Assembly: GCA_024762335.1 (NCBI GenBank)
Contig: JANTHO010000011.1
Span: forward strand, 1 to 51,529
DNA: 51,529 nt
DNA from: Acidimicrobiia bacterium
GTDB taxonomy: Bacteria; Actinomycetota; Acidimicrobiia; Spongiisociales; UBA5794
Direction of reading: 5' to 3'
Shown: positions 317-32,495 of the stretch, piece after piece
How the letters are laid out: each line of letters opens with the position of its first letter
Numbering within the stretch: position 1 is the stretch's first letter
Made by a program: the position numbers and the translations under genes
Notes under the pieces: generated by a model
The model's database searches: none
What the model saw: the letters and a program-made list of their open reading frames with translations, nothing else
Told to the model about the DNA's origin: nothing

Positions 317-332
317 CTCGTTGCTCCTCCTA

Positions 333-7032: not shown

Positions 7033-7406
7033 CGCAGAACCCCTTTGCGGATCGCGTAGATGAGGCCGAGCAGCAGGATCAGGACGAAGGCGGCCATCTC
7101 GAAGAAGACGAGTGCACCGTTGCCGATGCTCTTGAAGTAGTCGGTGGAGACGGCCCACGGGAAGATGAAGACGGCTTCGACGTCGAAGATGAGGAACAGG
7201 AGGGCGAACACGTAGTAGCGGATGTGACTCTGGTTCCACCCGCCACCGATCGGTTCGATGCCGGACTCGTATGGGGTGGCCTTGAGGCGGCTGGGGCGAC
7301 GAGGTGCGACGATGCGAGCTGTGATGATCGCTGCAGCGACGAGCAGCGCACCAGACAGAAGGAAGACGGCGACCGTCATGTAGTCGCCGAAGTATTGGTT
7401 GCGCAC
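7023..7406 (-). CDS. nuoA: NADH-quinone oxidoreductase subunit A, cluster 1
   Basis: A 127-residue, three-helix subunit. The diagnostic motif [11 protein letters not shown] (normally PYECG) sits after the first helix, and [23 protein letters not shown] is the conserved second helix. The start is a GTG at 7406-7404, giving [10 protein letters not shown]; an alternative ATG nine codons later (MTVAVFLL) would leave the first helix almost bare, so the GTG is preferred. It is the first gene of cluster 1. A sigma-70-like promoter lies about 54 bases upstream. The second nuoA (28302-28724) has the more common PYECG. Confidence 0.93.
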
Positions 7407-15400: not shown

Positions 15401-16974
15401 TCCGATCCCTCCTCGCTGTGCTCGCCCACGATCTCAGCGCGAACGTCCTGCGGTTGCACGATCTCTTCTGCCCGGCCGTATTCGGGCGGCTGGTAGTCGG
15501 TCGTGGTCTGGATCCGGTCGAGGATGATCTCTACGGATGGATCGATCCGGTCGAGGACCGGCTTCGGATAGATGCCGATGCCGATGATGATCACGATCAG
15601 GGGCACGAGAATGGCGATCTCCCGGAACCCGAGGTCGCTGAGGCCTTCGTTTTTCGGGTTGAGGACCGGCCCGGTGAACATCCGCTCGTACATCCAGAGG
15701 AGGTACACGGCGGCGAGGATGACGCCCGATCCGGCGATGATTGCCAGCACTGGCAACGTCAGATAGGACCCGAGCAGCACGGTGAACTCGCCGATGAATC
15801 CGGAGAGGCCGGGGAGACCGATCGAAGCGAACGCCATGAAGAGGAAGATCCCGGCGTAGATCGGCATCACCTTCGCGAGTCCGCCGTACTCTGAGATCAG
15901 GCGGGTGTGCCGGCGCTCGTAGATCATGCCGATGAGGAGGAACAGTGCGCCGGTGGTGAGTCCGTGGCTGATCATCACGAACACGCCGCCCGAGAGTCCC
16001 TGGCTGGTGAGCGCGAAGATGCCGAGCACGACGAAGCCCATGTGGCTCACCGACGAGTAGGCGACGAGCCGTTTGGCGTCGGGTTGGACGATGGCGACGG
16101 CGGCGCCGTAGATGATGCCGATCACGCCGATGATCCCGAGGATCTGTGCGAGATCGACGGACGCCTGAGGGAAGAGCGTCAGGTTGAATCGCAGGAAGCC
16201 GTACGCCCCCATCTTCAGGAGTACGCCGGCCAGGATGACGGAGCCGGCGGTCGGTGCCTCGGTGTGGGCGTCGGGAAGCCATGTGTGGAACGGGAACATC
16301 GGGACCTTGACCGCGAAGGCGATCCCGAAGGCGAGGAACAGCCACAGTTGCGTCGTCGGCGACAGGTCGAGCGACAGCATCTGTCGGAAGTCGAACGAGG
16401 TGATCGTCCCTGCGGCATCGCCCGCGGTGATGGCGATCACGATGATGCCCGCGAGCAGGAAGATGGACCCGAATGCGGTGAACAGCACGAACTTGATCGA
16501 CGCGTACTTCCGGTTCTCGCCGCCCCAGATACCGATCAGCAGGTACATGGGGACGAGAACGATCTCGAAGAACGCGAAGAACAGCAGCAGGTCGAGCGAT
16601 AGGAAGACGCCGAGCAGTCCGGCTTCGAGGACGAGCATCGAAACCATGTACTGCTTGGTCCGGTCGGTGATCGACTTCGACCCTGCGATGGCGAGCGTCA
16701 TCAGGATCCCGGTGAGGACGATCATGAACAACGAGATGCCGTCGACACCGAGCCGCCAACCGATGCCGAGCGAGTCGGACAGCGCGTAGTCCTCGGTGAA
16801 CTGGAACCCGGCCTCGCCGACGGTGAAGTTCCATAGGATCCACAACGATGCGACGAGTGGAAGGATGCTGACGCCGAGCGAGACGGGGAAGATGAGTTCC
16901 GGACGCCGTTTCGGCAGGAACCCGACGACCAGCGCACCGAGCAGCGGCAGGATGATGAGGAGTGTCAGTTCCAT
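15397..16974 (-). CDS. nuoM: NADH-quinone oxidoreductase subunit M, cluster 2
   Basis: A 525-residue antiporter-like subunit. Landmarks are WRLGVDGISLFMIVLTGILM, FAFFEIVLVPMYLLIGIWGGENRKYASIKF (with the conserved membrane glutamate) and KVPMFPFHTWLPDAHTEAPTAGSVILAGVLLKMGAYG, all diagnostic of NuoM rather than NuoL or NuoN. ATG at 16974-16972 overlaps the nuoL stop by one base (TGATG). The C-terminal tail after the last helix is acidic (EEIVQPQDVRAEIVGEHSEEG). Confidence 0.96.
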   Translation of the reverse strand: MELTLLIILPLLGALVVGFLPKRRPELIFPVSLGVSILPLVASLWILWNFTVGEAGFQFTEDYALSDSLGIGWRLGVDGISLFMIVLTGILMTLAIAGSKSITDRTKQYMVSMLVLEAGLLGVFLSLDLLLFFAFFEIVLVPMYLLIGIWGGENRKYASIKFVLFTAFGSIFLLAGIIVIAITAGDAAGTITSFDFRQMLSLDLSPTTQLWLFLAFGIAFAVKVPMFPFHTWLPDAHTEAPTAGSVILAGVLLKMGAYGFLRFNLTLFPQASVDLAQILGIIGVIGIIYGAAVAIVQPDAKRLVAYSSVSHMGFVVLGIFALTSQGLSGGVFVMISHGLTTGALFLLIGMIYERRHTRLISEYGGLAKVMPIYAGIFLFMAFASIGLPGLSGFIGEFTVLLGSYLTLPVLAIIAGSGVILAAVYLLWMYERMFTGPVLNPKNEGLSDLGFREIAILVPLIVIIIGIGIYPKPVLDRIDPSVEIILDRIQTTTDYQPPEYGRAEEIVQPQDVRAEIVGEHSEEGSE

Positions 16975-18845
16975 CAGAACGCACCTCCCTGGAGGAGGAG
17001 CCAGAGGATGACGCCGAGGCTCCCTGCAACGATGCCGGCGCCGTAGGAACGAACCCATCCGGTCTGGAGGACACGCAGCGACGATCCGAAGGCCTTCGTA
17101 ACGACGGCCATGCCGTTCACAATCCCGTCGACCACTCTCACGTCGAAGATCATGGCGAGCCACGTCGCGGCCGCCTTGCCCGGTGCAACGATGACCTTGC
17201 CGTAGAGGTCGTCGACGCCGTAGCCATCGAGAGCCGCGGCCCAGTAGCCGCCGTCCTCCGCCGGCAGCTCACCCCGCCCGTACCGCTGGTAGGCGAGCAG
17301 GATGCCGACCGCAATGACGGCCAGGGAGATCAGGGCCAGCGCCACAATGGTCACATTGCCGAGGGGATGCACTTGATGCACGTTCTCGAACGTCGGCTCG
17401 AGGAAGTGCTCGAGACCGAGCCGCACCGGTGTGTTCCACAGGCCGATGACCGCCGCGAAGAACGCGAGGACGATGAGCGGGATCGTCATGGTCGACGGAG
17501 ACTCGTGCGGATGGGTGTCGGGGTCCCATCGCTTCTCACCGAAGAACGTGAGGATGATGAGTCGCGTCATGTAGAAGGCCGTGATGAGCGCCGTGATGAC
17601 ACCGATCGCCCACAGGCCAATGAACCATCCGCCCTTGGCGAACGCCGCGCCGAGGATCTCGTCCTTCGACCAGAAGCCGGAGAGCGGGAACACACCGCTG
17701 ATCGCCAGCCAGGCGATCGCCATCGTCCAGAACGTCGTCGGCATGTACTTGCGGAGCCCGCCCATCTTCCACATGTCCTGCTCGCTCGACATGGCATGGA
17801 TCACCGAGCCGGCTGCGAGGAAGAGGAGGGCTTTGAAGAAGGCGTGGGTCATGAGGTGGAAGATGCCTGCGGTGAGGGCGGTGAGGCCGACAGCCATGAT
17901 CATGTAGCCGAGCTGGCTGATCGTCGAATAGGCCAGGACCTTCTTGATGTCCCGCTGGCCGACGGCGAGCGTCGCTGCGAACAGCGCGGTGAGGGCACCG
18001 ACGGTCGCGACGACGGCGAGGCTGACGGGCGCCAGTTCGAAGAGCGCTGCGGTTCGGGCGATCATGTAGACGCCGGCGGTGACCATCGTCGCTGCGTGGA
18101 TGAGAGCCGACACCGGTGTGGGGCCTTCCATCGCGTCCGGGAGCCATACGTACAGCGGCAACTGCGCCGACTTGCCGGTCGCACCGATGAACAGCATGAG
18201 CGTGATCGCCGTCGCCATCCCGACGCTGAGGACGCCCTCGGCCCGTGCGAAGACGATGTCGAAGTCGAGCGTGCCGAAGGCGGCGAAGATCATCATGAGG
18301 CCGACGAGGAAGCCCCAGTCGCCGATGCGGTTGACGATGAACGCCTTCTTGCCCGCCGCGGCGGCCGACGGCTTGGAGAACCAGAAGCTGATCAGCAGGT
18401 ACGACGACAGTCCGACGAGTTCCCAACCGACGAACATCAGGGCGAAGTTGTCGGCAAGGACGAGCGTCAGCATCGAACCGATGAACAGGTTCATGTAGCT
18501 GAAGAACCGCGGGTACCGCTCGTCCCCGTGCATGTAGCCGATCGAGTAGATGTGGATCAGCCCGCCGACGCCGGTGACGATGAGCGTCATCAGAGCCGAC
18601 AGCGGGTCCCACAGCAGCGACGCGTTGGCACCGATCACCGGGATCCAGGAGAACACGAACACATGCTCGGTTTCTGCACCGCCGAGGAACGGTACGGCGA
18701 GGATGACGGCCATGAGGAACGGGATCGCGACCAGTGCCGATGCGAACCACCCAGAGGCGGGTTCACCGATGCGCTTGCCGAACACGATGAGCGTCAACGC
18801 CCCGAGGAGCGGGAGAGCGATGAGGAGCCAGAGATAGTCGATCAC
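16974..18845 (-). CDS. nuoL: NADH-quinone oxidoreductase subunit L, cluster 2
   Basis: A 623-residue antiporter-like subunit with the long lateral helix region. Motifs are YVWLPDAMEGPTPVSALIHAATMVTAGVYMIAR, KKVLAYSTISQLGYMIMAVG and HAFFKALLFLAAGSVIHAM. The start is GTG at 18845-18843, four bases after the nuoK stop, with GGGATGATGGC in front; no better start exists in frame. It is shorter than the cluster-1 paralogue at 333-2393, mainly in loops and the C terminus. Confidence 0.96.
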   Translation of the reverse strand: MIDYLWLLIALPLLGALTLIVFGKRIGEPASGWFASALVAIPFLMAVILAVPFLGGAETEHVFVFSWIPVIGANASLLWDPLSALMTLIVTGVGGLIHIYSIGYMHGDERYPRFFSYMNLFIGSMLTLVLADNFALMFVGWELVGLSSYLLISFWFSKPSAAAAGKKAFIVNRIGDWGFLVGLMMIFAAFGTLDFDIVFARAEGVLSVGMATAITLMLFIGATGKSAQLPLYVWLPDAMEGPTPVSALIHAATMVTAGVYMIARTAALFELAPVSLAVVATVGALTALFAATLAVGQRDIKKVLAYSTISQLGYMIMAVGLTALTAGIFHLMTHAFFKALLFLAAGSVIHAMSSEQDMWKMGGLRKYMPTTFWTMAIAWLAISGVFPLSGFWSKDEILGAAFAKGGWFIGLWAIGVITALITAFYMTRLIILTFFGEKRWDPDTHPHESPSTMTIPLIVLAFFAAVIGLWNTPVRLGLEHFLEPTFENVHQVHPLGNVTIVALALISLAVIAVGILLAYQRYGRGELPAEDGGYWAAALDGYGVDDLYGKVIVAPGKAAATWLAMIFDVRVVDGIVNGMAVVTKAFGSSLRVLQTGWVRSYGAGIVAGSLGVILWLLLQGGAF

Positions 18846-18849
18846 GCCA

Positions 18850-19155
18850 TCATCCCTTCAGCTCCGACAGTTCATCCACGTTCGCCGTCGCCCGGCGTCG
18901 GAACACGGCGACGAGGATCGCCAGTCCGATCGTGACCTCCGCTGCGGCGACCACCATCACGAAGAGCGCTGCGACCTGTCCTTCGACAAGACCGAGTTCA
19001 GTCCCTGCGGCGATGAAGGTGAGGTTCACCGAGTTCAGCATCAGTTCGACCGACATGAACATCACGAGTGCGTTGCGTCGGGTCAGCACGCCGGCCGCAC
19101 CGATCGCGAACAGCACCGCTGCGAGGCTCATGTACCAGCCGATGGTGACGGTCAT
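18850..19155 (-). CDS. nuoK: NADH-quinone oxidoreductase subunit K, cluster 2
   Basis: A 101-residue three-helix subunit with the family core GVLTRRNALVMFMSVELMLNSVNL and the second glutamate in VVAAAEVTIGLAIL. ATG at 19155-19153 overlaps the nuoJ stop by four bases. It ends four bases before nuoL. The protein is the same length as the cluster-1 NuoK and ends similarly (ANVDEL), which shows clear paralogy of the two clusters. Confidence 0.95.
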   Translation of the reverse strand: MTVTIGWYMSLAAVLFAIGAAGVLTRRNALVMFMSVELMLNSVNLTFIAAGTELGLVEGQVAALFVMVVAAAEVTIGLAILVAVFRRRATANVDELSELKG

Positions 19156-19691
19156 TGCCCCTCCTCCGACTCGGTCTCACGCAACTGCGGTGTGCCGAAC
19201 ATGGCGAGCGCCACGGTGCCGACGGCGGCGATGGTGAGGAGGAACACCGTCGCGAGGAACGCGACGGTCCAGGTGCCGAAGAGGGCATCGGACACCGTCT
19301 CGATCGTTCCGTTGAGATCCGGGGCGCTGAACGCGGTGTTGCCGGTGATCCAGGCCTGGCGACCGGCCATGATGATGACTCCGGCGAGGCCGAGACCGAT
19401 GACGACGGTGAGGCCCCGCTGGAACGGGATCGTCTCCGCCGTGTCCTCCTTCTTGTCGACGCCGATCATCATGATGACGAACAGGAAGAGGGTCATGACG
19501 GCGCCGGCGTATACGAGGATCTGGACGACCGCGACGAAGTGCGCGTCGAGCAGGATGTAGAACAGCGCCATCGTGAACATCGTGGTGAGCAGACCCATCG
19601 CCGAGTAGACGGGGTTCTTGGCGGTCACCATGACGATCGCACCTGCGAGTGCCACGGCGGCGAAGATGATGAAGAGAACGACCTCAGTCAT
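19152..19691 (-). CDS. nuoJ: NADH-quinone oxidoreductase subunit J, cluster 2
   Basis: A 179-residue membrane subunit. The NuoJ core is visible as FVAVVQILVYAGAVMTLFLFVIMMIGV. ATG at 19691-19689 gives the normal N terminus MTEVVLFIIFAAVALAG and overlaps the nuoI stop by eight bases. The same frame stays open upstream through the heptamer array, giving a spurious Lys/Arg/Gln-rich extension that is not part of the protein. The N-terminal position of this gene right after the array means that its translation depends on where nuoI ends. Confidence 0.93.
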   Translation of the reverse strand: MTEVVLFIIFAAVALAGAIVMVTAKNPVYSAMGLLTTMFTMALFYILLDAHFVAVVQILVYAGAVMTLFLFVIMMIGVDKKEDTAETIPFQRGLTVVIGLGLAGVIIMAGRQAWITGNTAFSAPDLNGTIETVSDALFGTWTVAFLATVFLLTIAAVGTVALAMFGTPQLRETESEEGQ

Positions 19692-20415
19692 CGGTCCCCT
19701 CCTCACCGTCGCCTCTTGGCTCTTGGTTCTTGGTTCTTGGCTCTTGGCTCTTGGTTCTTGCCTCTTGACTCTTGACTCTTGACTCTTGACTCTCGCCTCT
19801 TGCCTCTTGCGCAGGTTCCGCCGGGGCGAGTCCGCCCATGCGTGCACTCGGCGACCATGCTTCAACACCTTCGAATTCGGCCCGTCCGGACGGAGAGGTC
19901 GCCCGAAGCCAGCCGTCGCCGAGACGCAGCTCCTTGATGTCGATGAGCGGCGTGTCGGGCAGCGGATGGTTCGGCGTGCCGTCCGGCTCGACGAGCAGCA
20001 CGTCCTTGGTGAAGATGCCTTCCTGACGATCCGAGACGGACATCTCGAAGAGATGCGTCATCGTGATCGCCTCCGTGGGACACGCTTCGACGCACATCCC
20101 GCAGAAGATGCAGCGCAGCATGTTGATCTCGTAGACGAAACCGAAACGCTCCCCGGGGCTGACCGGGTCGTCCGGCGGGTTGTCTTCGCCGCGCACGTAG
20201 ATGCATCGGGCCGGGCACACGCTCGCGCAGAGTTCGCACCCGATGCACTTCTCCATGCCGTCCGGATAGCGGTTGAGGGCATGACGGCCGTGGAAGCGCT
20301 GCGGCTTGACCCGCTTCTCCTTCGGATAGCGCGTCGTCAGCTTCGGCTTGAACATCTGACGCCATGTCACGGTGAAGCCCCGCCAAGGGCCGAGGAGATC
20401 TGCGAACCAGCTCAT
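19684..20415 (-). CDS. nuoI: NADH-quinone oxidoreductase subunit I, cluster 2, with repeat-encoded C-terminal tail
   Basis: A 243-residue protein, about 75 residues longer than the cluster-1 NuoI. Both [4Fe-4S] ligand sets are intact: CIGCELCASVCP and CIFCGMCVEACP, followed by the usual EAITMTHLFEMS. The ordinary fold ends near residue 195. The remaining tail is hydrophilic and repeats a seven-residue pattern (S-Q-E-x-R-x-K), because a tandem array of seven-base units encodes it (19711-19808). Seven is not a multiple of three, so a change of one unit would alter the frame of the last codons and the stop, which overlaps nuoJ. The tail has no known role. ATG at 20415-20413. Confidence 0.93.
   Translation of the reverse strand: MSWFADLLGPWRGFTVTWRQMFKPKLTTRYPKEKRVKPQRFHGRHALNRYPDGMEKCIGCELCASVCPARCIYVRGEDNPPDDPVSPGERFGFVYEINMLRCIFCGMCVEACPTEAITMTHLFEMSVSDRQEGIFTKDVLLVEPDGTPNHPLPDTPLIDIKELRLGDGWLRATSPSGRAEFEGVEAWSPSARMGGLAPAEPAQEARGESQESRVKSQEARTKSQEPRTKNQEPRGDGEEGTDD
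19711..19808. repeat. Heptanucleotide tandem array, 14 units, inside nuoI
   Basis: Fourteen consecutive seven-base units of consensus G-N-Y-T-C-T-T on the plus strand run without a break: ggctctt, ggttctt, gcctctt and gactctt are the main variants, and one unit ends in C. The array is 98 bases, lies within the 3' end of nuoI and ends 19 bases upstream of the nuoJ start codon. No reading frame of the array contains a stop. Heptameric short tandem repeats of this kind are well known in cyanobacteria but are not expected in a core respiratory gene. Confidence 0.95.
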
Positions 20416-20428
20416 CGTCGTACTCCCC

Positions 20429-21469
20429 TCATGCCCACGGCAACCCGAATCGGCGGATCCCGACGGCGATCATCGCGAGGATGATCCATGCCAGCGAAAC
20501 GGGAATGAGGCGTTTCCACCCGAAACTCATCAGCTGGTCGTACCGCAATCTGGGCAGCGTTCCACGCACCCAGATGAACAGGAACACGATGGCGAACGTC
20601 TTTGCGAAGAAGTAGATCACGGGGAGGATCCATTGGACGACGGTCGGTCCGAACACCGGGCCTTGCCATCCGCCGAAGAAGAACACGACCGTGAGAGCGG
20701 ACATATTGAACAGGTTGATGTATTCGGCGAGGAAGAACAATGCGAAGCGGAACCCCGAGTACTCGGTGTGGAAGCCGCCGACGATCTCCTGTTCGGCTTC
20801 GACGAGGTCGAACGGTGCACGGTTCGTCTCGGCGAACATGGCGATGACGAACACGACGAAGGACGGGAGAAGCACGATATTCCACGCCGGGAGGAACCCG
20901 AAGTAGGTCGCTCCCTGCGCTTCGACGATGCCGGCGAGCGACGTGGTGCCGTTGAACATGATCACCGGGACGAGGGCGAGGCCCATCGCCGCCTCGTACG
21001 AGATCATCTGCGCCGCCGAACGCACCGAACCGATGAGCGGGTATTTCGAACCGGACGACCATCCCGCGAGAGCGATCGCGTAGACCGCCATCGAGGACAT
21101 GGCGAGCACGTAGAGAACTCCAACGTTGAGGTCGGTGACCTGGAGGGTGTACTCGGTTCCGCCGATCGTGATCGGTGCTCCGATCGGGACAACGAGGAAG
21201 ATCAGGAGTGCCGGTACGAGCGCCATGATGGGCGCCGCCAGATAGAGCCAGACTTCGACCCGGTCCGGCGTCATCGACTCCTTGAAGATCAGTTTCAGAC
21301 CATCGGCGAGCGTCTGGAGGATCCCGAGCGGCCCCGCCCGTGTCGGTCCGAGGCGGTTCTGCATGAACGCCACGATCCGGCGCTCCGCCCAGACGAGGAT
21401 GAGAACGACTGTGAACAGCAGGGCGAAGGCGATGACCGTCTTTACGGCTGCGACGATGAAGTCTTCCAT
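20429..21469 (-). CDS. nuoH: NADH-quinone oxidoreductase subunit H, cluster 2
   Basis: A 346-residue membrane subunit. Motifs are WAERRIVAFMQNRLGPTRAGPLGILQTLADGLKLIFKE (conserved RxGP loop), GWSSGSKYPLIGSVRSAAQMISYE and AETNRAPFDLVEAEQEIVGGFHTEYSGF, the quinone-channel acidic loop. The last is the textbook NuoH form, whereas the cluster-1 protein has [22 protein letters not shown], so the two belong to different NuoH lineages. ATG at 21469-21467 overlaps the nuoG stop by one base. It ends 13 bases before nuoI. Confidence 0.96.
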   Translation of the reverse strand: MEDFIVAAVKTVIAFALLFTVVLILVWAERRIVAFMQNRLGPTRAGPLGILQTLADGLKLIFKESMTPDRVEVWLYLAAPIMALVPALLIFLVVPIGAPITIGGTEYTLQVTDLNVGVLYVLAMSSMAVYAIALAGWSSGSKYPLIGSVRSAAQMISYEAAMGLALVPVIMFNGTTSLAGIVEAQGATYFGFLPAWNIVLLPSFVVFVIAMFAETNRAPFDLVEAEQEIVGGFHTEYSGFRFALFFLAEYINLFNMSALTVVFFFGGWQGPVFGPTVVQWILPVIYFFAKTFAIVFLFIWVRGTLPRLRYDQLMSFGWKRLIPVSLAWIILAMIAVGIRRFGLPWA

Positions 21470-23907
21470 CAGGCGTCACCTCCTCGCACGGCGTCGATCC
21501 GCAGCGTTCCGACGGCGCCGAGACCGGCCGTTGACGCGAGGTTGAACGGGACATAGACGGTGCCTTCAACGAGGCTCGGGTCGATCACGACGGGGAGCGT
21601 GACTTCGCCGTCGACGGTGAGCGTGATCAGATCGCCTTCGGCCAGAGCAAGCACCGACGCGTCGCGGGGGTGCAGATGGGCGGCGGCCGCCGGTGCGAGA
21701 CCGGCGATGCCGGAACTGTGGCGGACGATCACGCCATCGTCGTAGAGAACCCTGGCCGTGTGCAGGATCCGGTGTCCGGAGACGATCGGGACGCTGCGAT
21801 CGACGGGGGTGTACTCGAGCGGCTGGGATCCATCGGCCGTCGGAAGAACGAACCCGTCGCGTCCCTCGCCCCACGAGAGACGATCCCACGCCACGCCGGC
21901 GTAGGCGGGGGCGACACGGGTGATCTCATCCCCGACGGCTTCGGCCGATGCTGCACCGAACTCGGATCCCATCGCCAATGCGAGATCGTCGATGATCGAC
22001 CAGACCGGACGGGCCATGCCGGAGGGTGGGACGATCCGGTTGATCTTCTGGACGCGTCCTTCGATGTTCGTCGCCGTTCCCTCGACTTCGCCGAGACCGG
22101 CGACCGGGAAGATCACGTCGGCGTAAGCGGCCGAGTCGGACATGAACATCTCGAATGCCACGATGAATTCGGCGGAGTCGAGGCCGGCTCTCGCCACCGA
22201 CGGGGTGGGATGGTCCCGCACGGGGTCGGCGCCGTTGAGAACGAGAGCACCCAGTTCACCTTCGGCGAGGCCGGTAAGGATTCCGGTGGCGTCGAGGCCC
22301 GGACCCTCCGGCAACGAACCCCACGCTGCTTCGAGGGCGGAGCGTCCCGAGGCATCGTCGACATCGACCCTCCCGGGGAGCAGCGTCGGGGCGACGCCCA
22401 TGTCGAGGGCGCCGAACACGTTGCCTCTGCGCAGCAGCGGCATGACCTTGGCGTCCGGCAGGTCGACGGCGAACGCAGCGACGGCCTCGGCCAGGTCTGG
22501 ATCCTCTCCGAGACCGGCCCGGCCCACGAGCGCCACCACCGGACCTTCGGAGAGCGTGTCACGAACCGCGGCGTAGTCGCCGTCGCCGGCCGCGAGCTTG
22601 CGGAGCAGGTCGGGTCCCGTTCCCGGTCTGTAGGTGATGCTGTGGGTGGCGACACCGTCGAGGCCGGTGCGCCTCGGATGAACGATGACGAGCTTGGCGC
22701 CCAGATGCGTCGCGGCTCTCCGGACCCGCAGATAGAGCACCGGGAGCTCTTCTTTCAGGTCCGGGCCCCAGAGGAGAATCGTCTTCGCCGTTTCGAGATC
22801 GCCGATCTCGGCACGGGGGGTGACGGCCGCGGCGAACTTCGCATCGAGTCCGTCACCGACCTGCGCATCGAGATGCGGGGTACCGACGACGGAGCGGAGG
22901 AACTTCGAGAACGCGTATGCGTCTTCGTTGGTGGAGCGTGCTCCGCCGATGCCGGCGACCTTCGCTCCGTCGAACGATCCGAGCCGTTCGCCGACGAGGC
23001 TGATCGCCTCCGCCCACGTGGCTTCCCGGAAGTCGCCGTTCTCTCTGATGAGCGGCCTCGTGATCCGGTCCTCTGCGTAGATGTGATCGTGGACGAAGCG
23101 GTCCTTGTCGGAGAGCCAGCCGTGGTTCGTGGCGTCGTTGTCCACGCCGTAGATCCGGATGATCTCGTTCTGACTTGCCTGGACCGAGACCTTCGAGTGG
23201 ATGGTGTCGACGAGGGACACGGACTCGACGGCTTCGAGATCCCACGGGCGGGCCTTGAACCGGTACGGCTTGGCCGTGAGCGCACCCACCGGACAGATCT
23301 GCACCGTGTTGCCGGAGAAGTATGAGGCGAACGGCTCGTCCGGGAAGGTGATGACCTGGACGTAGTTGCCCCGGTCCTTGAACTCGATGAGCGGATCGCC
23401 CGAGATGTCCTCGGAGAACCGGGTGCATCGTGAGCACAGGATGCAGCGTTCCCGGTCGAGGAGGATGAGGTCGGAGATGTCGATCGGCTTCTCGAAGTGC
23501 CGTTTCTCTTCGACGTAACGCGACTCTCCTGCGCCGAAGGCGAAGGCTTGATCCTGGAGCGGGCATTCCCCGCCCTTGTCGCAGACCGGACAGTCGAGCG
23601 GATGGTTGGCGAGCAGGAATTCGAGGACGCCGGCCTGGGCCTTTTCGACGGTGTCCGACTTGGTGTGGACGACCATGCCGTCGCCGACCGGTGTCGTGCA
23701 CGACGGGACCAGCGCCGTTCCCCGTGGTCCTTCGACTTCGACGAGGCAGGCACGGCACATGCCGGCCGGTTCCAGGCGCGAGTGGTAGCAGAACCGGGGG
23801 ATGTAGGTCCCTGCCTTCTGGGCTGCTTCGATGAGCGGCTGACCGGCAGCGACGTCGACGTCGACGCCGTCGAGGTTGATCGTCACGGTGGCTGGCTTAT
23901 CGGCCAT
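21469..23907 (-). CDS. nuoG: NADH-quinone oxidoreductase subunit G, cluster 2
   Basis: An 812-residue iron-sulphur subunit of the NADH-oxidising module. N1b ligands are in CYHSRLEPAGMCRACLVEV plus a later Cys (VPSCTTPV). N5 ligands are in HPLDCPVCDKGGECPLQ (His plus three Cys). N4 ligands are in CILCSRCTRF plus CPVGAL. The C-terminal half is the molybdopterin-oxidoreductase-like domain. The Cys set for the extra cluster N7 is absent: the place where it would sit reads VDTIHSKVSVQ ... GWLSDKDRF. ATG at 23907-23905 gives MADKPATVTINLDG; it overlaps nuoF by 11 bases. Only cluster 2 has this gene. Confidence 0.95.
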   Translation of the reverse strand: MADKPATVTINLDGVDVDVAAGQPLIEAAQKAGTYIPRFCYHSRLEPAGMCRACLVEVEGPRGTALVPSCTTPVGDGMVVHTKSDTVEKAQAGVLEFLLANHPLDCPVCDKGGECPLQDQAFAFGAGESRYVEEKRHFEKPIDISDLILLDRERCILCSRCTRFSEDISGDPLIEFKDRGNYVQVITFPDEPFASYFSGNTVQICPVGALTAKPYRFKARPWDLEAVESVSLVDTIHSKVSVQASQNEIIRIYGVDNDATNHGWLSDKDRFVHDHIYAEDRITRPLIRENGDFREATWAEAISLVGERLGSFDGAKVAGIGGARSTNEDAYAFSKFLRSVVGTPHLDAQVGDGLDAKFAAAVTPRAEIGDLETAKTILLWGPDLKEELPVLYLRVRRAATHLGAKLVIVHPRRTGLDGVATHSITYRPGTGPDLLRKLAAGDGDYAAVRDTLSEGPVVALVGRAGLGEDPDLAEAVAAFAVDLPDAKVMPLLRRGNVFGALDMGVAPTLLPGRVDVDDASGRSALEAAWGSLPEGPGLDATGILTGLAEGELGALVLNGADPVRDHPTPSVARAGLDSAEFIVAFEMFMSDSAAYADVIFPVAGLGEVEGTATNIEGRVQKINRIVPPSGMARPVWSIIDDLALAMGSEFGAASAEAVGDEITRVAPAYAGVAWDRLSWGEGRDGFVLPTADGSQPLEYTPVDRSVPIVSGHRILHTARVLYDDGVIVRHSSGIAGLAPAAAAHLHPRDASVLALAEGDLITLTVDGEVTLPVVIDPSLVEGTVYVPFNLASTAGLGAVGTLRIDAVRGGDA

Positions 23908-25201
23908 CGGCCACCTCCCCATGTCCGCCCGGGATCATGGCTTCGACTTCGTCCCGGAAGTACCGCATCATCGAAACGACCGGCGCCGTCGCCGACGGGC
24001 CGAGTGGACAGATCGTCGTCATCGCCGGTGGCCAACGCAGCCCGGGGCTAATGTTGTCCGACACGTCGAGCAGCAGGCCGATGTCTTCCGGCCGTCCGTA
24101 CCCATCGAGGATCCTGGCGAGGATGCGTTCGAGCCACGTGGTGCCTTCGCGACACGGCGTGCACTGTCCGCAGGATTCGTGGGAGAAGAAGCGAACGAGC
24201 CGATGCGCCGCACCGACGACGTTGGTGGAGTCGTTCATGACGATGACGGCGCCGGATCCGATCATGGAACCCTGCTTTGCGATGTCGTCGATCGTGACCG
24301 GCGTGTCGAGGTGCTCGGCCGGAACGAACCAGGGTGCGGATGCGCCGCCGGGAACCCATGCTTTCAGCTCGCGGTCGTCGAGGATGCCGCCGCCGATGTC
24401 GTAGATGAGGTCCCGCCAGGTGAGGCCCGCCACGACCTCGTAGTCGCCCGGCTTGTTGACGTGCCCGGACAGGGACATCACGCGCGTACCGGATGAGGTT
24501 TCGGGCCCGATCGCCGCGTATGTTGCCCCGCCGTTGTTGATGATCCAGGGCACGTTGGAGATCGTCTCAACGTTGTTGACGATCGTCGGTTTCGCGTACA
24601 GACCTTCGATGGCGGGGAACGGCGGCTTGATGCGCGGTTCGCCCCGTCGCCCTTCGAGGCTGGACAGCAACGCCGTCTCCTCGCCGCAGATGTATGCACC
24701 ACCGCCGAGGTGAACGGTCACATCGAGGTCGAATCCGGAGCCGAGGATGTCGTCCCCCAGATAGCCGGCTTCGTACGCTTCGTCGATCGCCCGCTGCAGA
24801 CGACGGGCCGGTTTCGGATACTCGCCGCGGATGTAGACGAACGCTTGGTGCACGTCGAGGGCGTATGCGGAAACGATGATGCCTTCGACGAGTTGATGCG
24901 GGTCGCGTTCGAGCAACATGCGGTCCTTGAAGGTCCCCGGCTCGGACTCGTCGCCGTTGATCACGAGGTATCGGGGTCGGGTGTCCGGCGGGAGGAATCC
25001 CCATTTGACGCCGGTGGGGAACGATGCTCCGCCGCGGCCCCGAATGTTCGACGCTTTGACTTCGGCGGCGACATCGGCCGGCTCCATCTTGGAGAGCGCC
25101 TTGCGCAGTGCCGTATATCCGCCCGTGTCGAGATAGCGGGCGATGGTGTTCGAGTCGGCCGGGTGGGCTTCCATACGGGAGAGCAGGATCTTGTCGGTCA
25201 T
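23897..25201 (-). CDS. nuoF: NADH-quinone oxidoreductase subunit F, cluster 2 (NADH/FMN)
   Basis: A 434-residue subunit that binds NADH, FMN and cluster N3. Visible signatures are NIRGRGGASFPTGVKW (glycine-rich FMN/NADH site), YLVINGDESEPGTFKDR, GAYICGEETALLSSLEG and the N3 ligands ESCGQCTPCREG with a further Cys in TTICPLG. It catalyses NADH oxidation by hydride transfer to FMN. ATG at 25201-25199 overlaps the nuoE stop. It is the only nuoF in the window, so any NADH use by the cluster-1 complex would have to borrow it. Confidence 0.97.
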   Translation of the reverse strand: MTDKILLSRMEAHPADSNTIARYLDTGGYTALRKALSKMEPADVAAEVKASNIRGRGGASFPTGVKWGFLPPDTRPRYLVINGDESEPGTFKDRMLLERDPHQLVEGIIVSAYALDVHQAFVYIRGEYPKPARRLQRAIDEAYEAGYLGDDILGSGFDLDVTVHLGGGAYICGEETALLSSLEGRRGEPRIKPPFPAIEGLYAKPTIVNNVETISNVPWIINNGGATYAAIGPETSSGTRVMSLSGHVNKPGDYEVVAGLTWRDLIYDIGGGILDDRELKAWVPGGASAPWFVPAEHLDTPVTIDDIAKQGSMIGSGAVIVMNDSTNVVGAAHRLVRFFSHESCGQCTPCREGTTWLERILARILDGYGRPEDIGLLLDVSDNISPGLRWPPAMTTICPLGPSATAPVVSMMRYFRDEVEAMIPGGHGEVADGR

Positions 25202-25821
25202 CGCTTCTCCCCTTTCGCCGTGCCGTACGGGGAGAAGGCCGGGAGCGGTGCGATGGCGCCTTCGATCTCCTTCGGACCCCAGTCGAACGAGGGGCGTCCG
25301 CCGAAGAGCAGTTGCATCTCGTCGCCGAACACGACTTCGGGTTTGGCCTCACGCAGCCACTTGATGAGGTCCCGTGCCTTGTCGGGTTCGAGGCCTTCGA
25401 TGAGCTCCCAGTTGACGGAGACGGCGGGTGCGCCGCCGCAGGCGCCGGAGCATTCGACGTGTTCGACCGAGATCAGCCCGTCCGGCGTCGTTTCGCCGTC
25501 GAGGACTCCCGCCTCTTCTTCGATGGCGGCAAGCACGTCGTCCGCACCGCGCAGATAGCACGAGATGGAGGTGCACACGGACACGACGTACTTGCCGACC
25601 GGTTCGCGGTAGTACATCGTGTAGAACGACGCGACCGACTGCACCTGCGCCGATGTGAGGCCGGTCAGTTCGGCGACTTCGCGCATCGCGTCGTTGGAGA
25701 CATAGCCGTGTTCGAGGGCGGCGATGTAGAGGAGCGGCATCACGGCGGATCGCTTTTCCGGGTACTTGCCGAGTACCTCTTCAGCCCGCTGCTGATTCTC
25801 GGTGCTCCAGGTGCTGCTCAT
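25198..25821 (-). CDS. nuoE: NADH-quinone oxidoreductase subunit E, cluster 2 (2Fe-2S)
   Basis: A 207-residue thioredoxin-like [2Fe-2S] subunit. The N1a ligands are visible as CTSISCYLRG and, 40 residues later, CSGACGGAP (C-x4-C ... C-x3-C). The helical N-terminal domain contains YVSNDAMREVAELTGLTSAQVQSVASFYTMY, typical of NuoE. ATG at 25821-25819 overlaps the nuoD stop by four bases, and the stop overlaps nuoF. A longer in-frame reading lacks family support. Confidence 0.95.
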   Translation of the reverse strand: MSSTWSTENQQRAEEVLGKYPEKRSAVMPLLYIAALEHGYVSNDAMREVAELTGLTSAQVQSVASFYTMYYREPVGKYVVSVCTSISCYLRGADDVLAAIEEEAGVLDGETTPDGLISVEHVECSGACGGAPAVSVNWELIEGLEPDKARDLIKWLREAKPEVVFGDEMQLLFGGRPSFDWGPKEIEGAIAPLPAFSPYGTAKGEKR

Positions 25822-27251
25822 CGGTCCACATCCCCCAGTACCGGATCGAGCGAAGCGAGCGTGGCGATCACGTCGGGGATGATCAGGTCGGTCATCATCA
25901 CCGGCAGCGCCTGGACGGTTGCGAACGAGGGGGTCCGGACGTGGAGACGCCACGGTTTCGATCCGCCCTTCGCCACCAGATACATGCCGAGCTCACCGCG
26001 CGGCGACTCGACGGCCTGGTAGGCCTCGCCCGGAGGAACCTTGAAACCTTCGCTGAAGATCTTGAAGTGATGGATGAGGGCCTCCATCGACTCGTCGATA
26101 CGTTTGCGCGGCGGTGGGGTGACCTTGCGGTCCTCGGTCCGGTAGTCGCCGGGCGGCATCGTTTCGAGAATCTGTTCGACGATCCTCATCGACTGGCGTA
26201 TCTCCTCCATGCGGACGAGGTACCGGTCGTGCGTGTCGCCGTACTTCCCCAGCGGCACGTCGAACTCGTACTGTTCGATCCCGCTGTACGGGAAGGCTTT
26301 GCGGAGATCGAAGTTCACCCCTGCCGCACGGGCGATGGGCCCGGTCGCCCCGTACGCCTGCGCCTCTTCGGGGGTGATGATGCCGACGCCCTGGGTGCGG
26401 TCGAGGAAGATCGGGTTCCCGTTCAGGAGGTCCTCGTAGTCGGTGAGACCGGCACGCACGATGTCGAGCGCCTCCTCGACATCCTCCTCCCAACCGGCCG
26501 GGAGGTCGGCGGCGACACCGCCGGGGCGGATGTAGTTGTGATTCATCCGCAGCCCCGTCACCTTTTCGAAGAAGGCGAGGATCGCTTCGCGTTCGCGGAA
26601 GCCGTAGATCATCATCGACAGGGCGCCGATGTCCATGCCGAACGTCGCGACCCAGATGAGGTGGCTGGCGATCCGGTTGAGTTCGGTCATCAGGACGCGG
26701 ATCGCCTGCGCCCGTGGCGGGATCTCGACACCGAGGAGTTGCTCGACGACGAGCGAGTAGCAGAGTTCGTTGTTGAGCGGTGAGAGGTAATCCATGCGGG
26801 TGACGTTCGTGCTTCCCTGCATGTACGACAGGGTCTCCGCCGTCTTCTCCATGCCGGTATGGAGGTAGCCGATGATGGGCTTGACCCGCCGGACCGTCTC
26901 GCCTTCGAGTTCCATGTGGAGACGGAGCACACCGTGGGTGGCCGGGTGCTGCGGACCCATGTTGATGATCTGCCGCTCGTCTTCGATGACCGTCGGCTCT
27001 TCCAGGTAGTCGTCGTCGACAACGAGACCGCGCTGGACTTCGACCGCCGGGTCGATGTCCCTCGGCAGAAGTTCCTGGGCGCCCTCGTCGGTCGAACCCG
27101 CCACCCAATCCGGTTCCTCGGTGCCCGCGACCCAGATGTCGTGGGCGCGACGACGCTCGACGGCGTCCAGTCCCTCGTCGGCCGCCTGGATCGGCGGTTC
27201 GAGCACCGGTGCCTCGGTATCACCCTCGACGTTGTGTGGTGTTTCGCTCAT
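25818..27251 (-). CDS. nuoD: NADH-quinone oxidoreductase subunit D, cluster 2, with long acidic N-terminal extension
   Basis: A 477-residue protein. The NuoD fold starts near residue 95 (INMGPQHPATHGVLRLHMELEG) and ends in the standard LASLDPVLGDVDR. Conserved helices TEIGYLHTGMEKTAE-like (here PIIGYLHTGMEKTAE) and MTELNRIASHLIW are present. The first 94 residues are acidic and Pro/Glu/Asp-rich with no recognised domain; the cluster-1 NuoD has only about 24 residues before the same core. The extension is real in the sense that it is in frame and begins at an ATG overlapping the nuoC stop; a start just before the core would lack any ribosome site. Confidence 0.95.
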   Translation of the reverse strand: MSETPHNVEGDTEAPVLEPPIQAADEGLDAVERRRAHDIWVAGTEEPDWVAGSTDEGAQELLPRDIDPAVEVQRGLVVDDDYLEEPTVIEDERQIINMGPQHPATHGVLRLHMELEGETVRRVKPIIGYLHTGMEKTAETLSYMQGSTNVTRMDYLSPLNNELCYSLVVEQLLGVEIPPRAQAIRVLMTELNRIASHLIWVATFGMDIGALSMMIYGFREREAILAFFEKVTGLRMNHNYIRPGGVAADLPAGWEEDVEEALDIVRAGLTDYEDLLNGNPIFLDRTQGVGIITPEEAQAYGATGPIARAAGVNFDLRKAFPYSGIEQYEFDVPLGKYGDTHDRYLVRMEEIRQSMRIVEQILETMPPGDYRTEDRKVTPPPRKRIDESMEALIHHFKIFSEGFKVPPGEAYQAVESPRGELGMYLVAKGGSKPWRLHVRTPSFATVQALPVMMTDLIIPDVIATLASLDPVLGDVDR

Positions 27252-27817
27252 GACGACTTGTGTGATCCTTTGAACTGCACCGGTACGGAACCGACGCTGT
27301 AGTCCTTGCGCAGCGGATGCCCGGTCCAGTCGTCGGGCAGCACGATGCGGGTCAGGTCCGTGTGACCTTCGAACACGATCCCCATCAGGTCCCAGGCTTC
27401 GCGTTCGTAGAAGTTCGCTCCGGCATACACCGGCGTGATCGAATCGAGCCTGGGATCGTCTCCCGGGAGACCGACCTTGATCATCAGCCGCTGCGTGTGC
27501 TGCATCGACAGCAGGTTGATGACGATGTCGTATCGCGGGTCCCGGTTGAGGTGGTCGACGGCGCACGTGTCGACGAACGTCTCGAAACCGGCGTCTTTGA
27601 CGGCGGTGACGAACGGGATGAGGTCCTCGCGTGCGACGTGTGCCGTGTCCTGGCGCGGTCCGGTGATCGGTTGGAAGGATGTGAACTCGACGGACGGGAA
27701 CGCCTCGGCGAGCGGGTCGAGGATCGGATCACCGGGCAGGGGACGTGCCTCCGTTTCCTGCTCAACGGTCTCGTCGACGTCGACCGCTTCCTCTTGTGGT
27801 GTGGTTTCTTCGGCCAT
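27248..27817 (-). CDS. nuoC: NADH-quinone oxidoreductase subunit C, cluster 2
   Basis: A 189-residue 30-kDa-type subunit. The family core is GANFYEREAWDLMGIVFEGHTDLTRIVLPDDWTGHPLRKDYSV. Its first 35 residues are strongly acidic ([20 protein letters not shown]), like the extension on the neighbouring NuoD. ATG at 27817-27815 overlaps the nuoB stop by one base; a GTG one codon earlier is also possible. It is coupled to nuoD by a four-base overlap. Confidence 0.94.
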   Translation of the reverse strand: MAEETTPQEEAVDVDETVEQETEARPLPGDPILDPLAEAFPSVEFTSFQPITGPRQDTAHVAREDLIPFVTAVKDAGFETFVDTCAVDHLNRDPRYDIVINLLSMQHTQRLMIKVGLPGDDPRLDSITPVYAGANFYEREAWDLMGIVFEGHTDLTRIVLPDDWTGHPLRKDYSVGSVPVQFKGSHKSS

Positions 27818-28302
27818 CACACCAACCCCGTCGAGCGCCGGATCTCACCGGCCATGATCTTGTCCTGCAACGTGAGGATCCCGTGCATGAGCGACTGCGG
27901 ACCCGGAGGGCATCCCGGCACGTAGATGTCGACGGGAACGATCTCATCGACGCCCTGCACGAGGGCGTAGTTGTTGAACATCCCTCCGGTGGATGCGCAC
28001 GCCCCCATCGAAATCACCCACTTGGGTTCCGCCATCTGGTCGTAGACCTGGCGAAGAACGGGCGCCATCTTCTGGGAGAGACGCCCGGCAACGACCATCA
28101 GGTCGGCCTGGCGGGGCGAGGCCCGGAAGACCTCCATCCCGAATCGCGCAAGGTCGTGGTGTGCGGCTCCGGTCGCCATCATCTCGATGGCGCAGCACGC
28201 TAGGCCGAAGGTTGCCGGCCACATGGAGCGGGTCCTCGTCCAGCTGACGCCCTTCTCGAGTGTTGTGAGGAGGAAACTCGGATTGTCGACTTCGCCGGCC
28301 AT
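27817..28302 (-). CDS. nuoB: NADH-quinone oxidoreductase subunit B, cluster 2 (cluster N2)
   Basis: A 161-residue subunit with all N2 ligands: [31 protein letters not shown] and [12 protein letters not shown]. The quinone-pocket stretch [22 protein letters not shown] is normal. Compared with cluster 1, the pocket sequence differs ([22 protein letters not shown] there), so the two copies come from separate NuoB lineages. ATG at 28302-28300 overlaps the nuoA stop by one base. Confidence 0.96.
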
Positions 28303-28724
28303 CAGGCGGCCTCCTCGATCTCTGGTTCGGGAGCGACGACTCTGCGGTAGCGGGCACGGCTGGCGACGTTCCAGTCGAGCGCTCCGCGCTTCCAGACGTA
28401 TCCGAGCGTCTCGATGAGAAGCAGCATGAACAGGCCGACCGAAGCGATCCCCGCCCAGCCGAACTCGTCCATGCGGACGGCCCAGGCGAAGAGGAAGATG
28501 ATCTCGACGTCGAAGATGACGAACAGCATGGCAACGAGGTAGAACTTCACGGGGAACCGTTCGACCGGTTCCTGGAGCGGAACGATGCCGCACTCGTACG
28601 GAGCGAGTTTCTCGGGAGATGGATTGTTCGGAGCAATCCTCCACGAGATCAGCATCGCAGCCGCGGCGAACACAACGCCGAGGATGAACATCAGAGCGAT
28701 CGGAAGATACGCGGCGAGATCCAT
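28302..28724 (-). CDS. nuoA: NADH-quinone oxidoreductase subunit A, cluster 2
   Basis: A 140-residue three-helix subunit with the classic [33 protein letters not shown]. The ATG at 28724-28722 has no ribosome site; the predicted transcription start is about three bases upstream, so the message may be leaderless, which is common in actinobacteria. It is the first of 14 nuo genes, all overlapping or spaced by at most about 13 bases. Confidence 0.95.
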
Positions 28725-29311: not shown

Positions 29312-30562
29312 TCAGGCTTTGATGCGACGAACGCCCGGGAGATCGACGGCCTGCTCGATCGTCCGGTAGATCTTCTCCGATATGCCGCGCTCTTCGGGTT
29401 CGAGAAGGTTCGCCATCACCTTGAGCACCCACTCCATCAGCGGCCGGGATCGCATGCCGACCGTCGTGAGCGTCCTCATCACGGTGGGGTTCCCGATCGC
29501 TGAAACGAAGATCCTCGCCACGCGGTGATACGCCGCATACTCGTCGACGAGGGCGTCCTCGTAGCGGGAGAGTGCGGACGGATCGCCGGTCGCGAGCGCT
29601 TCGGCAACGAACCCGGCCGCCATCCGCCCCGTCTCATAGGCGTAGTCGATTCCCTCCCCGTTGAATGGATTGACGGCACCGGCGGCGTCGCCGACGAGCA
29701 TCCAGTTCCTGCCCGTCTTCGGGCCGACGGAGAGCGCCATCGGCAACTTGCCGCCGATCGGTTTGGCGATCGGGTCGGCTTCGATCTGCCAGTGCTCGGG
29801 AAGTTCGGCCAGGTAGGCATCAAGGATTCGGCTCGTGTTGATGTCCTTCCAACCTTTGAAGGTCGAGACGAGTCCGGCGCCGACGTTGATGGTCCCATCC
29901 CCCATCGGGAACACCCACCCGTAGCCCGGCATCGCCCGCCCCTCCCGATCGCGAATGTCGAGTTGACTTTCGATGAAACCGTCGGTCGAGTTCGGACTCT
30001 CCCAGTAGGCGCGCACGGCGAGACCGAATGGATAGTCACGGCGCCGATGAGTTCCGAGCGCCCGTCCGAAGCGGGAGAGCGACCCGTCGGCGATCACAAC
30101 GTACTCCGGCGTGACCGTGCGCATCTCGTCAGAGCCTTGGTTCAACTGGACACCAATGAGTTCGCCATTCTCAACGACCGCCGTGGCTTCGACCCCCTGG
30201 AGGACCGTTGCTCCTTGTTCTTCTGCGAGCGACGCGACCCGTCCGTCGAGATCGGCTCTGCGCAGCGTTGCTCCCCAATTGGGGAAGACGGAATGCTCGG
30301 GCCACGGCATCTCGAGCATCACATCACCGGCGTAGGATCGGAGGCCGACGATCCGGTGAACGTCGGGCTGATCGAAGTCGAAGCCCATGTCGACGAGTTG
30401 CCTGACGGCCCTTGGTGTCAGCCCATCGCCGCACGCCTTCTCGCGTGGGTACCGCTTCTTCTCCACCAGGAGAACGTCGACACCGCTTCGCGCAAGCCAG
30501 TAGGCGGCGGATGCCCCACCGGGCCCACCACCGACAACGAGTACCTGAGGAGATGCAGACAT
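29312..30562 (-). CDS. Geranylgeranyl reductase family flavoprotein (MenJ-like)
   Basis: A 416-residue FAD enzyme. The dinucleotide fold is VLVVGGGPGGASAAYWLARSG near the N terminus, followed by EKKRYPREKACGDGLTPRAVRQL, the family signature. The FAD-binding motif GRNWMLVGDAAGAVNPFNGEGIDYAYETG is at about residues 280-310. The family reduces double bonds in isoprenoid chains; next to nuo, the likeliest target is the menaquinone side chain (MenJ), though archaeal-type lipids or chlorophyll precursors are the other family substrates. ATG at 30562-30560. It lies upstream of no other minus-strand gene and ends 11 bases before the palindromic element. Confidence 0.85.
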   Translation of the reverse strand: MSASPQVLVVGGGPGGASAAYWLARSGVDVLLVEKKRYPREKACGDGLTPRAVRQLVDMGFDFDQPDVHRIVGLRSYAGDVMLEMPWPEHSVFPNWGATLRRADLDGRVASLAEEQGATVLQGVEATAVVENGELIGVQLNQGSDEMRTVTPEYVVIADGSLSRFGRALGTHRRRDYPFGLAVRAYWESPNSTDGFIESQLDIRDREGRAMPGYGWVFPMGDGTINVGAGLVSTFKGWKDINTSRILDAYLAELPEHWQIEADPIAKPIGGKLPMALSVGPKTGRNWMLVGDAAGAVNPFNGEGIDYAYETGRMAAGFVAEALATGDPSALSRYEDALVDEYAAYHRVARIFVSAIGNPTVMRTLTTVGMRSRPLMEWVLKVMANLLEPEERGISEKIYRTIEQAVDLPGVRRIKA

Positions 30563-30627: not shown

Positions 30628-31860
30628 TCAGCTCGGTATCACCATGAGGTAGACCACGGTGAGCACGGACGCAAGGAGCATCGCCACCGCCACCCATGCC
30701 ACATAGGTGGGTCCGTTCGAGGGTGCCGGCCGCTTCTTCTCGACGGGTTCGGGAACTGCCGCAGGCGTCGGGGCTACCCGGACCTTCGGAGCGATCGAAA
30801 CCATTCGCGCCCGCGGAGCGGTTCGAGGCTTCGGTTCAGGGGCAGGCTCTGGTGCCGGCTTCGGAGGCGGCGGTGCGGCCACCGGTGTCGTCGGGGCCGG
30901 AGCGGGGGCAGTATCGCCGCCGAGACCCGCTTCGGCAGCCCACTCCCGCAACACGTCATCAACCGACCGACCCGACTTCTTCGCATTCGCCTTCGCCGAC
31001 CGCTCCGTCAACGACTCCGGCATCCCCCGAGCCGCCGCCACCGCAGCCAACAACTCAGCACCCTCCAACCCAACACCAACCGGCTCAACAACCGCAGCCG
31101 GAACAGCAGCCTCAGCAGCCGGAGCAGCAGCCGGGACAGCAGCGGCAGGAGCGGCCGGTGCCGCAGGAGCAGCCGGTGCCGCAGGAGCAGCCGGCGCTTC
31201 GCCAACGTCGATACCTGCCTCTTCGGCCCACTCACGCAGGACATCGTCGAGCGGAACGCCGATCGTCCTGGCCCGCGCTGATGCCGACCGTTCGACCATC
31301 GACTCGGGAAGTCCCCTTGCCTCCGTGACGGCTGCCAGGAGAGCGGTACCCTCGAGCAATGACCGGCCGTCACCCTCAGAGGTGGTCGTCGAAGCCGGTG
31401 CTGGTGCCGCTTCGACGATCTCGGGGGACGCGTCCGGAATTGTTGAATCCACGGCCACTACAGCCGGTGCCGGAGTCGTCGTGAGACCCTCCTCAGCCGC
31501 CCACTCCCGCAGCACGTCGTCGACCGACGATCCGGCAGCGCTGGCCCGCGCCTTCGCCGAACGACCGATCACCGATGCCGGCATCCCACGGGCTTCCGCA
31601 ACGGCCTCAAGCAGCGCATCGCCTTCGAGACCCACATCGAGGCCTCCGGTGGCGACGGCAACTGAAGGCGCGGCCTCAGATTTGGCCGTTTCCGACACCG
31701 ACGGTGAAGGGACGTCGCCGGCACCCGTTTCCGTCGTCCACGCCTGAAGAACCGACTCGGGGGTCGTGCCGGACGCTTTGGCTCGTGCAGCGGCAGAACG
31801 CGCGAACAGCCATGCCGGCGCGCCGTATGTGTCTTCGAGTTGTTGAGCGATCTCTTCCAT
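30628..31860 (-). CDS. Tail-anchored protein with four repeats of an unrecognised helical module
   Basis: A 410-residue protein. A module of about 45-49 residues occurs four times: residues 1-47, 78-126, 168-216 and 264-312. Its pattern is a helix (LLEAVAEARG), M/L-P, a helix with R-S-A-x-A-R/N-A, a Gly turn, then S-V-D-D-V-L-R-E-W-A. Linkers are Pro/Ala-rich, including a run of AAP units. After residue 312 comes a Pro/Lys/Arg-rich region and then one C-terminal transmembrane helix (about 386-408: AWVAVAMLLASVLTVVYLMV). This suggests a cytoplasmic multi-module protein anchored by its tail. I do not recognise the family. The second ATG (31860) sits five bases after GAGG. Module 4 has different codon use. 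Confidence 0.7.
   Translation of the reverse strand: MEEIAQQLEDTYGAPAWLFARSAAARAKASGTTPESVLQAWTTETGAGDVPSPSVSETAKSEAAPSVAVATGGLDVGLEGDALLEAVAEARGMPASVIGRSAKARASAAGSSVDDVLREWAAEEGLTTTPAPAVVAVDSTIPDASPEIVEAAPAPASTTTSEGDGRSLLEGTALLAAVTEARGLPESMVERSASARARTIGVPLDDVLREWAEEAGIDVGEAPAAPAAPAAPAAPAAPAAAVPAAAPAAEAAVPAAVVEPVGVGLEGAELLAAVAAARGMPESLTERSAKANAKKSGRSVDDVLREWAAEAGLGGDTAPAPAPTTPVAAPPPPKPAPEPAPEPKPRTAPRARMVSIAPKVRVAPTPAAVPEPVEKKRPAPSNGPTYVAWVAVAMLLASVLTVVYLMVIPS
31154..31189. repeat. 18-bp tandem repeat in the Ala/Pro linker
   Basis: The 18-base unit GCCGGTGCCGCAGGAGCA occurs twice in tandem (31154-31171, 31172-31189) with a degenerate third copy after it and looser copies before it. It encodes the A-A-P linker between modules 3 and 4 of the tail-anchored protein, so linker length may vary between strains. 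Confidence 0.8.
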
Positions 31861-32104
31861 CATTACCTCAGCGAACGCGGTTATTCGGTCGGGTCATCGT
31901 GGTCTGCCCGAAGCAGTTACCCGTAGGATGGCATGATCGTGCGCGATCGTCGTATCGAGCGAGCCTGATATGGCAGTGGAGTATCCGGGCACGAACGCCA
32001 TGACCGAGCGCATCCCCGGACAACGACCGGACAACAAGCCGGCCGCGGCGCACACGCTGCGCATCACCCGGCATACAATCGTCGGTGTGTGGAGAGGATC
32101 CCAT

Positions 32105-32230
32105 ATGACCGAACACCAAGAATTCGCCGCCGAACCCGTGACGCTCGGAGTGCCGCGCGCCATCGATCGTTCACACGATCCACGGGACACCGGATCCGCG
32201 CGAGACATCTCAGGAGGTCGCCGTGGATAG
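32105..32230 (+). CDS. Small protein (41 aa), first of a three-gene chain
   Basis: A 41-residue reading frame that starts at an ATG with GGAGAGGA six bases upstream and a TACAAT -10-like box at 32074-32079. The product is hydrophilic with no recognisable domain. Its end overlaps the start of the next small gene by eight bases, and that gene has its own AGGAGG inside this frame, which supports a real coupled unit. The frame stays open back to an ATG at 31970, so a longer product is possible. Function unknown. Confidence 0.4.
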   Translation: MTEHQEFAAEPVTLGVPRAIDRSHDPRDTGSARDISGGRRG

Positions 32231-32495
32231 CTACCCGATCATCGCGCTCGCCGTCATCGCCGTCGTCGTCGTGACTCATCAGCGTGCCGACGGGCTCGTC
32301 TTCGCCGCGGGCAAAGCAAGATCCGTTTCGTCGTTTGGCCGTCCCCTGCGCAAAGGCCCGGGCTTTCCCACTGCACCCGAGCCGGCCGAAGAGCCGAACG
32401 AAGAGGCGAAGCCCGAACCGGAACCGCAAGGTCCCGGGTCGGAGGGCCCCGTGTCGGCCTTCGGGCGTCCGCTGCGACCCGGGCGGGGCCGGTGA
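32223..32495 (+). CDS. Small membrane-anchored protein with repeated FGRPLR motif
   Basis: A 90-residue product. The start is GTG at 32223 with a perfect AGGAGG five bases away. The N-terminal hydrophobic helix (YPIIALAVIAVVVV) would anchor it in the membrane. The rest is Pro/Glu-rich with two copies of FGRPLR, one near residue 38 (SSFGRPLRKG) and one near the C terminus (SAFGRPLRPG). The spacing between the copies is an acidic Pro/Glu linker. No known family; the motif pair looks like a binding epitope. Confidence 0.6.
   Translation: MDSYPIIALAVIAVVVVTHQRADGLVFAAGKARSVSSFGRPLRKGPGFPTAPEPAEEPNEEAKPEPEPQGPGSEGPVSAFGRPLRPGRGR

Follow-up and report, generated by a model that had tools for sequence, protein, structure and literature searches.

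What is the role of a membrane-anchored protein built of repeated helical modules that is encoded beside a reductase and complex I genes in an Acidimicrobiia bacterium? The stretch of DNA analysed here, referred to as the window, comprises 51,529 nucleotides of contig JANTHO010000011.1 (GenBank assembly GCA_024762335.1; GTDB lineage Actinomycetota; Acidimicrobiia; Spongiisociales; UBA5794). In this study, the architecture, distribution and gene neighbourhood of the module were investigated using profile searches, structure prediction and comparison of gene order among relatives. The module is a protein domain without a counterpart in the databases searched, and it is spread over subunits of complexes III and IV in a whole bacterial order. 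The window protein appears to be an unusual case within this family, namely, a cytochrome stripped of its haem domain whose putative docking arms were retained under selection.

Architecture of the window protein

The gene occupies positions 30,628 to 31,863 of the reverse strand, starts with ATG at 31,863 and encodes 411 residues. The initial annotation had described four repeated modules, Ala/Pro linkers and a C-terminal helix, and this plan was confirmed by module identities against shuffled controls, by profile search and by an AlphaFold2 model: four modules of ~46 residues are joined by disordered Ala/Pro linkers and followed by a single hydrophobic helix. Module 1 (residues 1–47; 31,723–31,863), module 2 (residues 80–126; 31,486–31,626), module 3 (residues 171–217; 31,213–31,353) and module 4 (residues 267–313; 30,925–31,065) all match profiles A1/A2 of the module family. 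Modules 2 to 4 share 64–70% identity among themselves, and the divergent module 1 shares 30–36% with them; shuffled modules reached a mean of 11% and a maximum of 28% in 2000 trials. A profile search of the same genome recovered the four modules at E values between 1e-20 and 1e-19, and no further hit had an E value under 0.17.

The pattern ARGMP...RSAxARA...SVDDVLREWA, originally given for all copies, holds for modules 2 to 4, and module 1 instead reads YGAP...RSAAARA...TPESVLQAW. Across 66 modules, the family is defined by the core R-S-A-x-A-[RK]-A, the proline preceding it and W or M in the third helix, at columns that are ~90–100% conserved; N replaces the second R of this core in module 4. 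Module 4, predicted alone with the alignment of 66 modules, formed a three-helix bundle at a mean pLDDT of 97. In the full-length model, four three-helix bundles exceeded a pLDDT of 90, module 1 included, the linkers were mostly below 50 and the membrane helix at residues 386–408 (30,640–30,708, reverse strand) reached ~90. The pTM of this model was 0.28, and the beads are thus not packed on each other in it. The modules are acidic, with net charges of −7 to 0 and a mean of −2.6. A basic stretch immediately precedes the membrane helix, so the positive-inside rule predicts a cytoplasmic N-terminus and cytoplasmic modules.

The view of a tail-anchored protein made of regular, unrecognised helical modules was borne out. 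No Pfam family scored above its cut-off for the protein or for 28 single modules, no match to the module was obtained in NCBIfam, no significant match was found among PDB sequences, and Foldseek returned no PDB fold at E ≤ 0.001, with designed alpha-toroids as the best hits. No description of these modules was found in open-licence papers. An HMM match to an Lsr2-like or E3-binding-like fold, which the initial annotation had named as evidence against novelty, was sought and did not appear. The Lsr2 DNA-binding domain (PF23359) scored 19.8 bits over just 13 residues against a gathering score of 26.9 and matched 0 of the 28 single modules at E ≤ 1; a basic DNA-binding surface would be expected for it, but the modules are acidic, and nucleic-acid binding was rejected on this charge. 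The ANTAR (EutV, AmiR) and ribbon-helix-helix (Arc) folds stood far down the Foldseek list at E 6.9–8.9. The E3-binding domain was not among the Pfam families matched by the protein or the 28 modules at lenient thresholds. The E2 peripheral-subunit (E3) binding domain resembles the window protein in that a small, helical unit for binding sits on arms rich in Ala and Pro, but the window protein lacks a Pfam E3_binding match, has three helices per module, is membrane-anchored and contains no enzyme core.

Distribution of the module and its respiratory carriers

A first scan of genome contigs with the window protein as query gave no match. The profile search that had been proposed for actinobacterial proteomes, including the check for fusions, revealed that the module is fused to respiratory cytochromes in the order of the window. 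Matches were present in 47 of 60 relatives and in 79 of the 81 genomes of this order, which is represented by uncultured genomes within the class Acidimicrobiia. When 396 genomes were drawn across the phylum, all 10 from the same order contained the module and a single marginal match was seen elsewhere; other classes of the phylum had no module at E ≤ 1e-4. The idea of a genus-specific orphan was refuted by the presence of the module in other genera of the order.

Carrier proteins were identified by translating the top-scoring module loci. They are the cytochrome b C-terminal subunit (PF00032), a cbb3-subunit-III-like cytochrome c and often a FixO-like cytochrome, and in most genomes of the order they hold one to five module copies on flexible Ala/Pro linkers. 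A further carrier has six or seven membrane segments and is neighboured by the aa3 oxidase genes COX1, COX2, COX3 and COX4_pro (Pfam); such a multi-span protein, with one N-terminal module and without a specific Pfam domain, adjoined aa3 genes in five of five loci (L067, L072, L074, L081 and L099). With the profiles used, neither the module nor its short relative described below was found outside respiratory proteins in the order. All module copies of the translated respiratory carriers precede the first membrane segment. The N-terminus of these respiratory subunits is cytoplasmic, and the modules are therefore predicted to face the cytoplasm.

Orders of Acidimicrobiia other than that of the window possess only a forerunner of ~20 residues, borne by cytochromes b and c. 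In these orders, one or two such segments, matching [IV]P[EA]HLLxR[SA], open the cytochrome b subunit, and a single one is often present on the cytochrome c encoded in the divergent direction. A single change suffices to separate the short motif from the full module on a tree of cytochrome b, as judged by label count alone and with three truncated rows standing outside the group. We infer from this the direction of change, in which the module would have grown from a short helix of ~20 residues. Matches to the short motif outside the class resembled frame noise or were too weak. A soluble protein of Acidimicrobiales (GVVRFELNRTLSGQGHER; L277, L278, L279, L280 and L281) carries at its very C-terminus the short motif VPAHLLERSRAAR, the same motif that opens cytochrome b, and one member of this protein group gave a sub-threshold match to Nfu_N.

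Gene neighbourhood and the missing haem domain

Downstream of the module gene lies a GGR-family flavoprotein gene (menaquinone/geranylgeranyl-reductase-like; 29,312–30,559, reverse strand), whose product matches FAD_binding_3 and reaches GGR_cat only below its cut-off; NuoA and NuoC are also encoded nearby. In relatives, the order is GGR, module-bearing cytochrome c and a CcoN-like gene that is not always present, all on the reverse strand, followed on the forward strand by a small membrane protein ending in SxYGRPL, then a ferredoxin-like gene and the N and C parts of cytochrome b (forward strand); nuoA often stands beside GGR. The window reads nuo, GGR (reverse), module protein (reverse) and FGRPL-tail protein (forward), and between GGR and the GRPL-tail gene its order and strands match those of relatives including L102, L103 and L170. 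This conserved order places the window protein in the cytochrome c slot. The initial annotation had considered the position beside a menaquinone reductase and complex I possibly meaningful; the neighbours are as it described, and their proximity is traced to the ancestral synteny of the module-bearing cytochrome c, which stands next to GGR and often next to nuo genes.

The window protein ends three residues after its membrane helix and has no CxxCH haem-binding domain, and a tblastn search of the window detected no remnant of one. The CcoN-like and cytochrome b genes are missing from the locus along with it. Outside the genus, the best matches of the protein are cytochrome c fusions, one alignment spanning the membrane helix to residue 410. 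When compared with the membrane segment of the cytochrome c family, the window helix ranked 4th of 328 segments, a resemblance that is only suggestive. From these comparisons, the window gene looks like that of a module-bearing cytochrome c from which the haem domain is missing. Like its module-bearing relative of the cbb3 subunit III/CcoP type (Pfam Cytochrome_CBB3), it would combine a cytoplasmic N-terminus with one membrane helix at the same gene position, and it differs from CcoP-type cytochrome c in having no haem domain. We know of no CcoP protein with such modules.

Conservation within the genus and the GRPL-tail protein

The genome of the window contains no module-bearing cytochrome b, only cytochrome b proteins without modules, and congener G001 likewise keeps such proteins; because the assembly is 93% complete, the absence of the bc/CcoN-like cluster is likely but not certain. 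Within the genus, the module-bearing bc cluster occurs only in G005. The module gene is conserved in three congeners (G001, G004 and G006), where it and the FGRPL gene lie at the same place, both on the forward strand, with the module gene after the GRPL gene. The three contigs (L084, L085 and L086) all end inside the module gene, and the C-termini lie beyond the contig ends. The flipped strand of the module gene indicates that a rearrangement happened within the genus. The dN/dS of the module gene was 0.15–0.32, with synonymous sites near saturation in pairs that include the window; the best pair (G006 and G004) gave 0.26 at a dS of 0.98. The module gene is under purifying selection.

Divergent from the module gene, a small predicted membrane protein of ~90 residues is encoded at 32,223–32,495 on the forward strand, with a GTG start after AGGAGG and two tail motifs of the form S.FGRPLR.G. 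Four species of the genus, namely, that of the window and the three congeners, have the SxFGRPL motif twice. A highly conserved tail S-x-[YF]-G-R-P-[LMI], 9–12 residues from the C-terminus, is shared by almost every bc cluster inspected in the class Acidimicrobiia (L064–L246), and it recurs beside the window-type module gene in those four species. Co-occurrence of tail and module within a bc operon is trivial, and the sole separate case is the locus in the genus of the window, which descended from the same cluster. The tails are basic and the modules acidic. Remote tail matches in the same genome were noise.

Possible function of the modules

We give about even chances to the reading that the window protein is a headless counterpart of the module-bearing cytochrome c, whose modules are docking domains that tether partners at the cytoplasmic membrane face, with the GRPL tail as candidate partner. 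In the genus of the window, the module-bearing bc/CcoN-like cluster would have been largely lost, and the cytochrome c would persist as four modules and a membrane helix together with its small FGRPL-tail membrane neighbour. Selection persists although the redox parts have been lost and a detectable module is seen on no other protein of the genome; the modules therefore presumably bind something that is itself module-free. The partner is probably not another module-bearing respiratory subunit for the same reason, and the most economical candidate would be the basic S-x-F/Y-G-R-P-L tail of the neighbouring protein, to which the acidic modules would bind. The proposal of a multivalent adaptor is plausible.

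The absence of further module proteins also bears on the alternative that the modules bind one another, so that complexes III and IV (and I) are held together on the cytoplasmic side, with the window protein as an unattached cross-linker. This fits the occurrence of one module on several different respiratory complexes, predicted to be cytoplasmic throughout and variable in copy number; however, the genome of the window would offer no module-bearing complexes to bridge, and the unpacked modules of the full-length model, weak evidence in itself, point the same way, so we regard homotypic binding as unlikely. In a further alternative, put forward only tentatively, the modules would dock a soluble partner common to bc-type proteins, for example a chaperone, an assembly factor, a redox partner or an Fe-S donor, and the window protein would keep this factor at the membrane. 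The forerunner motif at the C-terminus of the Acidimicrobiales soluble protein, one member of which approaches Nfu_N, and the ferredoxin-like protein of the bc cluster are in its favour, but no such factor was identified, and the confinement of module and short motif to respiratory proteins in the order, as judged with the profiles used, argues against it. A functionless remnant, decaying after the loss of a cytochrome c gene, would account for the missing haem domain, the disappearance of most cluster genes and the rearranged gene order, but reading frames that stay open in four or more species (in three of them truncated at a contig end), the low dN/dS and the confidently folded modules render it very improbable.

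The docking reading can be widened, more doubtfully, to an undescribed domain–peptide pair that would order the respiratory chain on its cytoplasmic side in Acidimicrobiia: the acidic modules, grown from the class-wide 20-residue helix, would bind the basic SxY/FGRPL tail, and in the genus of the window the pair would have outlived its cytochrome complex as a free-standing multivalent membrane scaffold. Respiratory supercomplex accessory proteins, such as yeast Rcf1 and the actinobacterial bcc-aa3 subunits, offer a functional analogy as extra parts that possibly hold complexes III and IV together; they differ from the present case, in which a repeated cytosolic module is common to several complexes. 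The locus thereby provides a testable example of a respiratory chain organised by multivalent modules in the cytosol, for which both a short ancestral form and a candidate peptide partner are proposed.

Additional genes of the window and its relatives

Two complex I-like clusters are present in the window, at 1–7,406 and 12,502–28,724, comprising a long nuo set and a shorter set of NuoA-, NuoC-, NuoD- and NuoL-like genes. In relatives, CcoN-like genes of the COX1 family separate the bc genes from the gene of the module-bearing cytochrome c (L076, 7,253–8,692; L064, 8,643–10,586; both reverse strand). Compared with PDB chains, their products appear to be without the histidines for the low-spin haem, the high-spin haem and CuB of cbb3, and they look like non-catalytic scaffold subunits. 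The L064 protein is fused to a FixO domain.
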